Source: Betaproteobacteria bacterium
GTDB taxonomy: Bacteria > Pseudomonadota > Gammaproteobacteria > Burkholderiales > SHXO01
NCBI GenBank assembly: GCA_009693245.1
Contig: SHXO01000007.1
Coordinates: 15,001-55,092 of the forward strand
Direction: 5' to 3'
Length of the DNA stretch: 40,092 bases
Shown here: one piece after another, positions 1,329-21,667 of the stretch
How the letters are laid out: each line of letters starts with the position of its first letter
How positions within the stretch are numbered: the first letter of the stretch is position 1
Position numbers and translations under genes: made by a program
The notes under the pieces: generated by a model
What the model was told of the DNA's origin: nothing
Database searches by the model: none
Seen by the model: only the letters and a program-made list of their open reading frames with translations

Positions 1329-2270
1329 ATGGACACTATCGAAAACAACAATCCTCTCGATGCTATCGATGCCAGAACCAAGCTGGCCGGGTCCAATAAG
1401 CTCGAAATCCTGCTTTTTTCGCTAGGTACCGAAGAGATATTCGGAATCAATGTTTTCAAGGTGAGGGAAGTCACGAAAACACCTCAGGTAACCCAAACAC
1501 CCAACATGCCGCCGGGCATCCAAGGCGTGATTTCACTGCGGGGACACATCATCCCAGTCATCAGCCTTGCGAGTTTTTTCAAACTCACCGGCCGCCACAA
1601 TGCCTCCGAAGACACGATGCTCGTCACCTAGTACAGTCGGCGCACGCAAGGTTTCCTCGTGCACGATGTTGACCGTATCGTGCGCGTGGATTGGGATCAA
1701 GTGAAATCCGCCGATGGCATCCTCTCCGGCCACGAGCAAATGGTCACGGCCATTACCGAGCTGCCCAGCGGGAGGCTCGTGTCCATCGTCGACGTCGAGC
1801 AGATTCTGGTGGATGCCTTTGGCGAGGCCGCGATCCCGAAGCTTGCACCAGTGGAGCAATCGCGGGACCGGACGGTGTTCTTCGTGGATGACTCTGCCGT
1901 CGCACGGCGCGAAATCTCATCCGTGCTCGACCAGCTTGGCGTGAAGTACCACCAAGCCAACAATGGCAAGGAAGCCTGGGAAAGACTACAGGGCATGGCG
2001 CAGCGTGCGACACAAGATAACCAACCCTTGCAATTGCAACTGAACGTCATACTGGTGGATGCCGAAATTCCGGAAATGGACGGCTATGTACTCACTCAGA
2101 ACGTCAAGGCCGACCGCCGTTTCGAAGGAATTCCCGTGGTGATGCACTCCTCGCTTTCATCCGAGGCAAACCGCGGCATGGGCAAGAAGGTAGGCGTGGA
2201 TGCCTACGTCGCCAAGTTCGATGCGGCCATGCTGGGCGATACGCTCAGGCCCTTGCTGCAAATGCATTGA
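1329..2270 (+). pseudogene. cheV: Chemotaxis coupling protein CheV (CheW domain + receiver), interrupted by one in-frame TAG
   Basis: One reading frame carries a complete CheV apart from a TAG at 1629-1631 (codon 101). Before it lies MDTIENNNPLDAIDARTKLA and the first half of a CheW-like domain. After it the same frame continues with YSRRTQGFLVHDVDRI, the rest of the CheW domain, and a receiver domain (about codons 180-305) with the DD pair and the phospho-acceptor Asp in VDAEIPEMDG (about codon 244). CheV proteins usually read (V/I)TEY at the TAG site, so a single GAG-to-TAG change explains it. CheV couples receptors to CheA and adapts through phosphorylation. The frame is otherwise intact over 313 codons, so the lesion is recent, an assembly error, or read through. 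A GTG at 1659 could restart translation but would lack half the CheW fold. cheY follows 58 bases later. Confidence 0.88.
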
Positions 2271-2328: not shown

Positions 2329-2733
2329 ATGACTAAAGGTGATCTCAAGTTTCTTGTCGTAGATGATTTCTCGACCATGCGCCGCATTGTGCGCAATCTT
2401 CTCAAGGAGGTTGGAATTACCAATGTGGAGGAAGCCGAGGATGGCGTGGCCGCGCTTGCACTGCTGCGCGCGGGCAAGTTCGACTTCGTGGTAAGCGATT
2501 GGAACATGCCCAATATGACGGGGATTCAGTTACTAAGGGAAATCCGGGCGGACGCAACGCTCAAGCATCTACCCGTATTGATGGTCACCGCGGAAGCGAA
2601 GAAAGAAAACATCGTCGAAGCCGCCAAAGCCGGTGCGAACGGTTATGTCGTAAAGCCTTTCACTGCGGCGACGTTAGATGAAAAGCTCCAAAAAATCTTT
2701 CAACAAATGCAGAAATCCGGAACTCTACAATGA
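2329..2733 (+). CDS. cheY: Chemotaxis response regulator CheY
   Basis: A 134-residue single-domain receiver. All signature positions fall at the E. coli CheY numbering: acidic pair D12-D13, phospho-acceptor D57 (VVSDWNMPN), T87 (VTAEA) and K109 (VVKPF). Phosphorylated by CheA, CheY binds the flagellar switch FliM and changes the rotation direction; CheZ dephosphorylates it. The ATG at 2329 has AAGG about 10 bases upstream. The 3' end overlaps cheZ by four bases (ATGA), so the two are translationally coupled. There is no output domain, so a motor-binding role is the natural reading. Confidence 0.96.
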
Positions 2734-3476
2734 CTCTCGCCATCGCCACCGCTTCGTCCTCCTCGCCGTCTTCAACTACCGATTCTCCCGATCTTGAAGC
2801 TTTGTTAGACAGCATAGTTTCGGCCCAGCAAATGCCCGAACCCGCGGCCGCCACCGCACCCGTATCTGGCGGCACGTATATGGTGTCTCAAGTGGGACAT
2901 TTAACGCGAAAACTCTACGACACCTTGCGAGAGCTGGGCGCGGACCAAGCATTGGAGAAAGCGAGCGCCTCCATTTCAGATACCTGCGAGCGCCTTTCCT
3001 ACGTGGCCAATTTGACCGACCAGGCAGCGCACCGGGCGCTGGCGGCCATCGAAACCGCCAAACCCATTCAAGACAATCTAGGGCGCGCGGCCAGCGAACT
3101 GCACGCGAATTGGGAGCGTTTCTTCAAACAGGAGTTAAGCGCCGGTCAGTTCAAAACGCTGGTGGAAAACACACGCTCTTATCTGGCTGGAGTTCCGGCC
3201 CAAGTCGGCGCCACCCAACAGCAACTCACCGAGATCATGATGGCACAAGATTTTCAGGATCTCACCGGCCAGGTGATCAAGCGCGTAACCACCGCGGCGC
3301 AGGACATGCAAAAACAACTGCTGCAATTATTGGTAGCCAATGTCCCAGCCGATAAACGCGAAGCAGCCGAAGCGAGCGGTCTTCTCAATGGCCCGGTCAT
3401 CAACGCCAGGGGCCGCACAGACATAGTCACCAGCCAAGCGCAGGTCGATGATCTGCTGCAAAGCCTCGGCTTCTAA
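2730..3476 (+). CDS. cheZ: Chemotaxis protein CheZ, CheY-P phosphatase
   Basis: A 248-residue, mostly helical protein. The catalytic block [16 protein letters not shown] contains the Asp/Gln pair equivalent to D143 and Q147 of E. coli CheZ, where Gln positions the attacking water on CheY-P. The C-terminal tail [13 protein letters not shown] is the CheY-binding helix, nearly identical to the enterobacterial one. A Ser/Thr/Pro-rich N-terminal 20 residues looks unstructured. It overlaps cheY by ATGA and is followed 18 bases later by cheA. Presence of CheZ supports a flagellar rather than an alternative-function chemosensory pathway. Confidence 0.95.
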
Positions 3477-3494: not shown

Positions 3495-5396
3495 ATGAGT
3501 CACTTTCAAGGCATGGAGGAGTTGCTTAAAGACTTCCTGACAGAGGCAGGCGAGCTCCTGTCCGATGTGGACAGCAAACTCATGGAGTTGGAGCAACGTC
3601 CCAATGACAAGGAGCTGTTGAACACCATTTTTCGCGGATTCCATACGATAAAGGGGGGCGCCGGATTTCTCAACGTCACGGATCTGGTGAACCTGTGCCA
3701 TTTGACGGAAAACCTCTTCGACAAGCTACGCAACTCCGAGCTTTTGCTCAATGCCGAATTGATGGATGTCATCATGTCCGCAACGGGCTGCGTCAGCGAC
3801 ATGTTCGGTCCGCTGCGCTCCAGCCAGTTACCGGCCCCAGCGGATCCTGGCTTGATCGCCGCCATGAAGGCAGCGCTCGAAGGAAAAACCGCCGCACCTC
3901 AACCTGCACCCGCCGCACAACCCGCCCCGCCCGTGGCGGCCGAGACACCCAAGGCAAGCACTCAGGATGCAGCGGGAGTCGACTGGCAGCACTGGCAAAA
4001 CACCATCCTCGGCCAACCGAGTCCGGCTACGGCCCCTGCCGCACCCATTGCTCCCGAAAATGCCGGCGCCCCTGCGGCAGCGGCGGAAGCAGCCGCCCCG
4101 GCGCGCTCGCCTGGGCGAAGAGCGACGGACCAGCCCGACAGAGATGGCGCCCGTACAGAGCTCCGGGAGAATGACAAGGTCGCCGTGGCGGCGGCGGAAT
4201 CCACCATACGCGTGGGCACCGTGCGCTTGGATCAAGTACTCAATCTCTCTGGCGAGATTGGATTGGCGAAAAACAGGCTAAATTGCTTGCGCACGGATTT
4301 GCTACAAGGCAAGCGAGATCCGGAAACTCTGCGTGAACTGGACCTCGCCGTGAGCCGTCTGGATTTACTGGTGAGCGATCTGCAAAACGCCGTGATGAAG
4401 ACGCGTATGCAACCCATCTGGCGCTTGTTCCAGAAGTATCCCAGGATGGCGCGGGATCTTTCTCGCCAGCTCGGAAAGAACATCGAAGTGGCGCTGAAGG
4501 GCGAGGAAACGGAACTCGACAAAACCATGATCGAGGACCTCGGCGACCCACTCATCCATCTCGTGCGAAATGCCGTGGACCATGGCATCGAATCGCCCGC
4601 GGACCGGGTAGCCCAAGGCAAACCGGAGAAATCCATCTTGCGCCTGAAGGCCCAGCAAATCGGCGACAGCATCATCATCGAGATCAGTGACGACGGACGC
4701 GGCATGCGCCCGGATATCATCCGCAAGAAAGCGGTGGAGAAAGGCTGTATCACCGCGGACGCCGCGGCCAATCTCAACGACGACGAGTCGCTAAAACTGA
4801 TCTTGCTACCGGGATTCTCCACCAAGGACACGGTAAGTGACGTCTCCGGCCGGGGCGTGGGGATGGCCGTGGTGAAGACCAAAATTCAAAAACTCAATGG
4901 CAGAATCGAAATCAAGTCCGTCATCGGCCAAGGCTCCACCTTCACTATCTACCTACCCCTCACTCTTGCCATCTTGCCGGTGCTGGTCGTGCGTTGCGGG
5001 GAACGGCCCTTCGCCGTCCCCCTGGCCTTGGTACGAGAGATCATTCCGATCCATTCAGAAGAGGTGCAGGCCATATCGGGCAAGGCAACCATGGTGATTC
5101 GCGACGAAATACTGCCTGTGTTTTCGCTCGCTTCCCTCATCGGATGGCCGCGCACGCAAGCCCCTGCCTATGGAGTGTTGATGCAATCCGCCGTGCGCTC
5201 GTTCATCCTCGCGGTGGATAGCTTTGTCGGCCGGGACGATGTAGTGATCAAACCCTTGGAAGACATCAAGCCAAGAGGCGTGGCGGGCGCCACGCAATCT
5301 GGCGACGGCTCCGTCGTATTGGTGCTCGACATGGAGGAATTATTGCGAGAGATGGCCAGCGAATCACGCGGCGATCTCCTCAAGGCAGCCGCCTAA
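3495..5396 (+). CDS. cheA: Chemotaxis sensor histidine kinase CheA
   Basis: A 633-residue CheA. The HPt domain (about 1-110) has the phosphorylated His at residue 50 in FRGFHTIKGGAGFL. A long Ala/Pro-rich linker (about 125-225) replaces a recognisable P2 CheY-binding domain. The dimerisation helices begin near IRVGTVRLDQVLNLSGEIG (about 235). The ATPase domain has the N box LVRNAVDHGIE, the G1 box DDGRGM, and LLPGFSTKDTVSDVSGRGVG. A CheW-like domain ends the protein (about 495-620). It autophosphorylates in response to receptors and passes phosphate to CheY and CheV. The ATG at 3495 has AAGGA eight bases upstream. The cluster contains no cheW, cheR, cheB or receptor, so these must lie elsewhere. 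Confidence 0.95.
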   Translation: MSHFQGMEELLKDFLTEAGELLSDVDSKLMELEQRPNDKELLNTIFRGFHTIKGGAGFLNVTDLVNLCHLTENLFDKLRNSELLLNAELMDVIMSATGCVSDMFGPLRSSQLPAPADPGLIAAMKAALEGKTAAPQPAPAAQPAPPVAAETPKASTQDAAGVDWQHWQNTILGQPSPATAPAAPIAPENAGAPAAAAEAAAPARSPGRRATDQPDRDGARTELRENDKVAVAAAESTIRVGTVRLDQVLNLSGEIGLAKNRLNCLRTDLLQGKRDPETLRELDLAVSRLDLLVSDLQNAVMKTRMQPIWRLFQKYPRMARDLSRQLGKNIEVALKGEETELDKTMIEDLGDPLIHLVRNAVDHGIESPADRVAQGKPEKSILRLKAQQIGDSIIIEISDDGRGMRPDIIRKKAVEKGCITADAAANLNDDESLKLILLPGFSTKDTVSDVSGRGVGMAVVKTKIQKLNGRIEIKSVIGQGSTFTIYLPLTLAILPVLVVRCGERPFAVPLALVREIIPIHSEEVQAISGKATMVIRDEILPVFSLASLIGWPRTQAPAYGVLMQSAVRSFILAVDSFVGRDDVVIKPLEDIKPRGVAGATQSGDGSVVLVLDMEELLREMASESRGDLLKAAA

Positions 5397-18744: not shown

Positions 18745-19701
18745 ATGGTGGGTGCGTTGCGGGGCTATTTCACGGCATGGCTCAACCGCCGCCACCAACA
18801 CGAAATTCCGCCCGTTCGCCTGACACAGCGGCGCATCTATGTACTGCCCACGCGCCCGGGCTTGCTGTTCGGCAGCACTTTGGTGGTCATGCTGGTGGGG
18901 GCCATCAATTACAACCTGAGCCTTGGGTACGTGCTCGTGTTCTTGCTATGCGGTGTGGGTATCGCCTCTTTGCTACATACCTACCGCTGCTTGGCCGGCC
19001 TGTCTCTCCGCCCGGGGAAGAGCGGCGCCGTGTTCGCCGGCGACACCGGTACGTTAGCCATGCTCATCCGCAATCCGGCCACCGTGTATCGCTATGGCGT
19101 GGAACTGTCGCTGGACAACCTGGGCACCACCACTGTGGACGTGGAGCCCTTGAGCGAGACCATCGCCCGGGTCTCGGTTCCAACCGAGCGCAGAGGAGTG
19201 CTTCGCTTCAAGCGATGGAGGATCACCTCCACCTATCCCTTAGGACTGACACGCGCTTGGGGTTACGCGCACCTGGGCAGCGAAATCATCGTCTACCCCC
19301 GGCCAGAACCCGCCGGCCCTCCTCCCCCTCTGGACGCCGCAAGCGGGATCGACGGACGTCATGGTGACCACGGCCAAGAGGACTTCGCTGGATTGCGCCG
19401 TTACCAACAGGGCGACTCGTTGAAACACATCGCGTGGAAGGCCCTGGCGCACGGGCACCCTTTACTCAGCAAGCAATTCACCGGCGGCACGCTCCCCGAG
19501 CTTCATCTTCGCTGGACCGATACCGGTGCCGAACTCGGAACCGAAGGCAGACTTTCTCGTTTGTGCCGCTGGAGCCTGGAGGCCTCGGCGCTTGGCGTGC
19601 CCTATGAGCTGGAACTGCCCGGGACATGTATTCCCATGGGGACAGGACCTGCCCATGACGAGGCGTGCCTGCAAGCCCTGGCGTTGTTCGAATCACAGTG
19701 A
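18745..19701 (+). CDS. DUF58 domain membrane protein
   Basis: A 318-residue protein from the ATG at 18745. Two membrane helices (about 36-80) follow a cytoplasmic N-terminus with RRIYVLPTRPGLLF. The C-terminal DUF58 block is recognisable by DFAGLRRYQQGDSLKHIAWK (about 210-230). DUF58 proteins are VWA-like and occur with MoxR ATPases, probably as their partners. The gene begins seven bases after moxR, and its TGA overlaps the GTG of the next gene (GTGA), so all three are translationally linked. The frame is also open further upstream, but that part is antisense or out-of-frame to moxR and has no family resemblance. Confidence 0.88.
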   Translation: MVGALRGYFTAWLNRRHQHEIPPVRLTQRRIYVLPTRPGLLFGSTLVVMLVGAINYNLSLGYVLVFLLCGVGIASLLHTYRCLAGLSLRPGKSGAVFAGDTGTLAMLIRNPATVYRYGVELSLDNLGTTTVDVEPLSETIARVSVPTERRGVLRFKRWRITSTYPLGLTRAWGYAHLGSEIIVYPRPEPAGPPPPLDAASGIDGRHGDHGQEDFAGLRRYQQGDSLKHIAWKALAHGHPLLSKQFTGGTLPELHLRWTDTGAELGTEGRLSRLCRWSLEASALGVPYELELPGTCIPMGTGPAHDEACLQALALFESQ

Positions 19702-21667
19702 AAACCCTGGCCGCTAAATCACCCCTCCCAACCCTGAGCGTACGGGAAGTATCGGTACTCCTCGCGCTCTTGTGCGCGGTGAGCGCGCCGCACGTGATGC
19801 GCATCTCCTCGTGGCCCGTGATGACAGCGATGGTCTTTATCGCCTACCGGCTGATAGCCGCATGGCGCCGCTGGCCGCTCCCCGGACCATGGTTGCGCTT
19901 TCTTCTCGTCGTTTTGGTGTGCGCCGGCATCGTGTTCGATTTCAGCACGCGCTTCGGGCGCGATGCCTCCGTGGCCATGCTTCTTTTGATGGCGGCGCTC
20001 AAAGCGCTTGAACTGCGCCATCCGCGCGACGGATTGGTGATCATCAACCTTGGTTACTTTCTCATCATCACGAGCTTTCTGTATTCCCAAAGCGCCGCGC
20101 TCGCGTCTTACATGCTCGTACTCATGCTGTGCATCACCGCGCTCCTCACCGCCTTGCAGCGCCGCGACAATCCATTCTCGCCCGGGCAATCGCTGCGGCT
20201 TGCCACGCGCCTGATGTTGCAAGGCGTTCCGCTCATGCTCGTGCTGTTCTTGCTATTTCCGCGCGTGGAAGGCCCGTTATTCGGCTGGCCGCAATCCTCG
20301 CTCTCGGGAATGAGCGGGTTGTCGGACGAAATGTCGCCTGGCAGCCTGAGTGCCTTGAGCTTGTCCGACGATGTCGCCTTTCGTGTGCAATTCGAGAGCG
20401 CCACGCCCGAACCCTCCACTTTGTATTGGCGAGGGCCGGTATTGTGGGATTTTGGCGGGCGCACCTGGCGCGTGGCCAGAGTGCCAGTCTTGCAACAGCC
20501 CATTCATCACTCCGTGTCGCGGCGGGTGCGTTACCAGGTGACGCTGGAGCCGCAGCAAGCGCGCTGGCTGTTCGCCATCGATCTGACCTCGCGAATTCCC
20601 GCCGGTGCTGTGCTCACGGCCGACTATCAATTGTTGAGCCGCCAGGCGCTTCGCCAGCGCCAGAGCTACGACATGGAATCGGACTTGGGCTATGGGGCGC
20701 CCAGGAATCCGAGCAGACCCTCGGCCGGGCGCTGCGCCTGCCACCGGATGGCAATATGCGATCCCGCCAGCTTGCCGCCGCCTTTTTACAGGAGTCCAAA
20801 TCGCCCCAGGAATTGGTGGAAAAAGCGCTCGGTCTGTTCCGCACGCAGCGCTTCTTCTATACACTCGCGCCGCCATTACTGGGAGCCGAGCCGGTGGATG
20901 AATTCCTCTTCGGCACGCGCCGTGGCTTCTGCGAGCACTTTGCCTCGAGTTTCGTTTTCCTAATGCGCGCGGCGGGGCTTCCGGCACGCGTGGTGACCGG
21001 CTACCTCGGCGGGGAAATCAATCCCATCGGCAACTATCTCGTAGTGCGCCAGTCGGAAGCTCACGCTTGGGCGGAAGTGTGGCTACCCGGCCAGGGTTGG
21101 CGGCGCGTCGATCCCACCGCCGCCGTGTCGCCCGCCCGCATAGAAATCGGATTGGCGGCGGCCGTGACCGCGGGCGAGCCTGTCCCCTTGGGGCTACGGA
21201 TGGATACCGCCTGGATCAAGAATCTTCGCTATACCATCGACGCCGCGGCGAACGGTTGGAATCAATGGGTGCTGGGATACACTCCGGCACGCCAAGCGCA
21301 ACTGCTGTCGAAGGCGGGCATCAAGGAAGTGAACTGGCACAAACTCGTATTGCTGCTCATGGTGTTCGCCGGCGTGGCGACGGGTCTGTTGGCGCCCTCG
21401 TTACTGAGGGACATTCACTTCCGGCGCGCTGCGGCGGCACCCAGACTTTACCGGCGCTTCGTGCGCAAGACGGCACGTGTAGGACTGCGGCCAAGAAGCG
21501 GAGAATGGCCCTTGGACTTCGCCCAGCGTGTGATTGCCGCCAATGGCGCGTGGCGCATTCCCGTGCAAACCATCACCGAACACTACGTGAATATTAGCTA
21601 CGGAAAGGAAGAAAACGAACAGCGCCTGCGCGCCCTGGCGCAGGCGGTCAATCGGTTTTCGCCCTAG
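19698..21667 (+). pseudogene. TgpA-like transglutaminase membrane protein with a frameshift
   Basis: The protein is split between two frames. The first runs from a GTG at 19698 overlapping the DUF58 stop and encodes several membrane helices (about residues 15-170) and the DUF3488 region up to YDMESDLGYGA. From about 20694 the homology continues in the frame one base back, with QESEQTLGRALRLPPDGN, then the transglutaminase core (Cys in RRGFCEHFASSF, His in SEAHAWAEVW, Asp in RRVDPTAA), a further membrane helix and a DUF4129-like tail. A GGGG run at 20694-20697 sits at the break; one more G would restore a 656-residue protein. TgpA is essential in Pseudomonas aeruginosa. Sequencing or assembly error and real mutation cannot be separated here. 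The stop shares CTAG with the convergent nlpD stop. Confidence 0.85.

Follow-up and report, generated by a model that had tools for sequence, protein, structure and literature searches.

What becomes of a chemotaxis gene whose reading frame is complete apart from one stop codon? The question is raised by cheV in a stretch of 40,092 nucleotides (the window), which comes from contig SHXO01000007.1 of a Betaproteobacteria bacterium. The frame occupies positions 1329–2270 of the plus strand, starts with ATG at 1329, ends with TGA at 2268–2270 and comprises 313 codons. It is interrupted by only one premature stop, an amber codon (TAG) at 1629–1631, which is codon 101 and sits in the local sequence GTC ACC TAG TAC AGT CGG. 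The initial annotation offered four accounts of this codon: a very recent nonsense mutation, an assembly or read error, suppression, or a split CheV restarted further downstream. Here, we conclude that cheV is very probably a recent nonsense pseudogene in the relict chemotaxis operon of a lineage without motility.

CheV proteins are coupling proteins in which a CheW domain is fused to a receiver domain (PMC4742279, PMC12691637), and the domain order of the window CheV is the same. When the frame is read through the stop, Pfam places the CheW domain at residues 26–162 (119.9 bits), spanning the stop, and the receiver domain at residues 183–296 (47.5 bits). No frameshift is present in the frame, and the initial description of a complete CheW-receiver gene with undamaged flanks, broken by the TAG only, agrees with both the sequence and the domain matches. 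The two domains thus share one frame, yet translation by the standard code would stop after 100 amino acids. This N-terminal fragment (1329–1631, plus strand) breaks off about halfway through the CheW domain and is probably inactive. A C-terminal fragment of 203 amino acids, counted from a GTG at 1659 (1659–2270, plus strand), would comprise a complete receiver preceded by the final third of the CheW domain; the receiver keeps its active-site residues DD, D, S and K, as read from the sequence.

The stop falls on a residue that is never seen to vary in relatives. Of the 200 order-level genomes surveyed, 103 contain a cheV match, most often as two copies in tandem. The residue aligned to codon 101 is glutamate in all 109 other loci, a few of which are duplicates of one genome. 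Among 84 relatives the codon is GAG in 46 and GAA in 38. The nearest orthologues, from genus-mates G001 and G002, are 68–70% identical to the window CheV, read VTEYSRRTQG at this site and use GAG. Among the matches listed for genomes of the order, the window copy is the sole cheV with an internal stop. The lone nonsense codon, in a frame that is sound everywhere else, is real and not a chance reading, and relatives have this frame unbroken. Since glutamate is always conserved and the nearest relatives carry GAG, the TAG is most simply accounted for by a single substitution in a GAG codon, and the origin proposed in the initial annotation is borne out by this codon comparison.

The wider sequence of CheV also departs from its relatives. 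Of 128 positions at which at least 97% of relatives agree, nine are changed in the window protein, compared with one and two in the genus-mates and at most five in 82 others. The branch leading to this genome is also fast in the neighbouring scpA and clpB, so that no clear acceleration of cheV stands out against them; because the whole lineage is fast, the excess in CheV is only suggestive of relaxed selection.

The surroundings of the gene establish which cheV it is and what has been lost beside it. Relatives share the gene order scpA, cheV1, cheV2, cheY, cheZ, cheA, an HDOD gene and clpB. The window keeps scpA, cheY, cheZ, cheA, the HDOD gene and clpB in that order, and the interrupted gene corresponds in position and orthology to cheV2, the downstream member of the betaproteobacterial tandem pair; in the genus-mates, CheV2 is likewise encoded just before cheY, cheZ and cheA. 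The tandem sister cheV1 is missing. Its site, between scpA and cheV2, is occupied here by about 217 bases (1112–1328), in which no cheV1 remnant is detectable, and no promoter or terminator signals were found within 1080–2400. Downstream on the plus strand, cheY (2329–2733) and cheZ (2730–3476) are open and match the NCBIfam CheY and CheZ equivalog models above cut-off, while cheA (3495–5396) is open and encodes Hpt, dimerisation, HATPase_c and CheW domains.

The pathway that these genes would serve is largely gone from the host genome, a 3.0 Mb draft in 130 contigs that is 97% complete and 0.03% contaminated. Searches of this genome returned no match for MCPsignal (chemoreceptors), for flagellin, FlhA or FliM/FliN, or for CheR. 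It contains no stand-alone CheW either, the only CheW-domain proteins being the window CheV and CheA. In genus-mates G001 and G002, every family searched across the genus is present; a third, G003 (78% complete), has the receptors, FlhA, FliM/N and CheR and lacks flagellin alone. The absences in the host are strong, short of absolute given the state of the draft. Flagellar chemotaxis requires receptors (MCP), a CheW or CheV adaptor, CheA, CheY and the FliM/FliN switch; of these, CheA and CheY are present, and MCP, CheW and FliM/N are absent. The CheV adaptor acts within a complex of receptors and CheA (PMC4742279, PMC12691637). With both receptors and motor switch missing, nothing is left for CheV to link, and the pathway on which selection for the gene depends has been lost. 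The window CheV differs from working CheV coupling proteins in its premature stop, in the lack of a cheV1 partner and in a genome that has neither receptors nor stand-alone CheW.

These observations suggest a sequence of events. Flagellar motility and chemotaxis would already have been lost, or have been in the process of being lost, when the conserved GAG (Glu101) became TAG by a single base change. With the receptor array and motor gone, selection on cheV would have lapsed and the nonsense mutation would have been tolerated; that cheY, cheZ and cheA have stayed open presumably reflects how recent the loss is. The rest of the cheV frame and the receiver active site are kept, so either the stop arose recently or selection acted on the gene until a short time ago. 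Of the accounts offered by the initial annotation, the very recent nonsense mutation is the one favoured by the lone stop in an otherwise conserved frame and the GAG of the genus-mates. Counting against a pseudogene, cheA, cheY and cheZ remain open and conserved.

The cheV gene is not alone in being broken. Stop-codon usage and broken genes were surveyed in stretches of the genome amounting to about 804 kb. Antisense ORFs produced many false hits when the survey greedily took the longest ORFs, and several persisted with codon scoring; the breaks given here are restricted to those whose sense frame is recognisable, and they are not a measure of how often genes are broken. In a pilU/pilT-type ATPase gene (L251, G000:C6, minus strand) a TAG at contig position about 31732 stands where the genus-mate has glutamate (GAA), and twitching motility may be decaying as well. 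The mscL gene (L077:9403-9834, minus strand) is interrupted by one TGA, on either side of which the gene is intact. At L078:18102-19199 (minus strand), a Bmp-type substrate-binding fragment with an internal TAA is joined to an amidohydrolase, which looks like a deletion fusion. A UxaA-like hydrolase gene (L257, G000:C13, about 32214) carries a frameshift, its halves being 81–90% identical to the genus-mate, and an outer-membrane protein gene and pabB are each broken by TAG. The window itself holds a second broken gene, a tgpA-like transglutaminase gene at 19665–21600, with Pfam TgpA_N in its first part and a frame that shifts near 20690 relative to the genus-mate. The essential window genes thrS, pheST, infC, hom, thrC, recJ and clpB, named by sequence recognition, are all open.

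Could the codon at 1629–1631 be read as something other than stop, or be something other than TAG? If TAG were decoded as glutamate or another residue, full-length CheV would be made, and pilU, with a TAG at a second conserved glutamate position, speaks for this. Given the codon usage here, however, TAG is the outcome of about 52% of single-base nonsense changes, and glutamate is the commonest source residue, so that finding TAG at glutamate twice (cheV, pilU) needs no special cause. A recoded genome would carry a CUA-anticodon tRNA, with TAG rare or release factor 1 (RF1) lost; here, the RF1 gene is present, full length and intact, and TAG terminates 237 of the 689 called genes (about 34%) with no sign of avoidance. 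The search for an amber suppressor tRNA that the initial annotation had called for found no CUA anticodon among 33 tRNAs, a set that is incomplete, several expected tRNAs being missing. Other genes are broken by other means: mscL by TGA, another by TAA and two by frameshifts. Amber suppression is extremely unlikely on this evidence, and recoding was rejected with it. An error in the consensus, with a sense codon at 1629–1631 and an intact cheV, is unlikely, if less so; the genome is a draft, the difference is a single base, and several other genes of the assembly have single-base breaks, which could equally stem from a poor consensus. On the other hand, the breaks sit in dispensable genes and the essential genes of the window are open, CheV has unusually many changes at conserved sites, and the loss of receptors, motor and cheV1 cannot stem from miscalled bases and is in itself a reason to expect relaxed selection. 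A consensus error at codon 101 would, moreover, leave the picture of a dismantled pathway unchanged.

It was also proposed that CheV is split but functional, with re-initiation at GTG 1659 giving a receiver that retains only part of the CheW domain and drains phosphate from CheA. A restart is conceivable: the GTG lies in frame 27 bases past the stop and is preceded, at a distance of 7 bases, by AAGG. The intact active-site residues of the receiver and the intact downstream cheA, cheY and cheZ also count in favour of a functional split. Yet the AAGG-like stretch falls in codons for residues conserved in relatives and gives no evidence of a new start site, and no such split occurs among the relatives' matches listed. 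Receptors, stand-alone CheW, CheR, flagellin, FlhA and the FliM/FliN switch are all absent, leaving nothing to signal through, so a phosphate sink has no evident purpose and a fragment restarted at 1659 would have no array to join. A functional split is very unlikely, and it is just as improbable that a CheA–CheY–CheZ core lacking receptors and motor has been retained to serve a function other than motility, the GTG 1659 fragment acting as its phosphate sink. The break in cheV, very probably a nonsense pseudogene as argued above, is best read as the ordinary decay of a gene whose pathway has fallen out of use and not as a new decoding trick.

Lineages that have lost the ability to swim are known to carry motility and chemotaxis genes inactivated by nonsense mutations; the module is lost whole and remnants carry inactivating mutations, as in the host, whereas the host keeps an open cheYZA stump and so looks like an early or intermediate stage of loss. 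Ferrovum (PMC4886054) and Bordetella (PMC5045587) are examples of such gene loss. A literature search for nonsense mutations in CheV found nothing specific. The locus would then offer a snapshot of dismantling, with receptors, motor and one cheV gone, the other cheV newly broken, and kinase, regulator and phosphatase open, and it makes the order of loss testable within a small clade of Burkholderiales-related bacteria. The main consequence is for annotation: chemotaxis or swimming should not be ascribed to the host, however intact its cheA, cheY and cheZ look. Within the open cheA (3495–5396), changes are seen at near-invariant sites, for example D439A, adjoining the G2 box, and G290W (G001 numbering); these are perhaps early decay in CheA.
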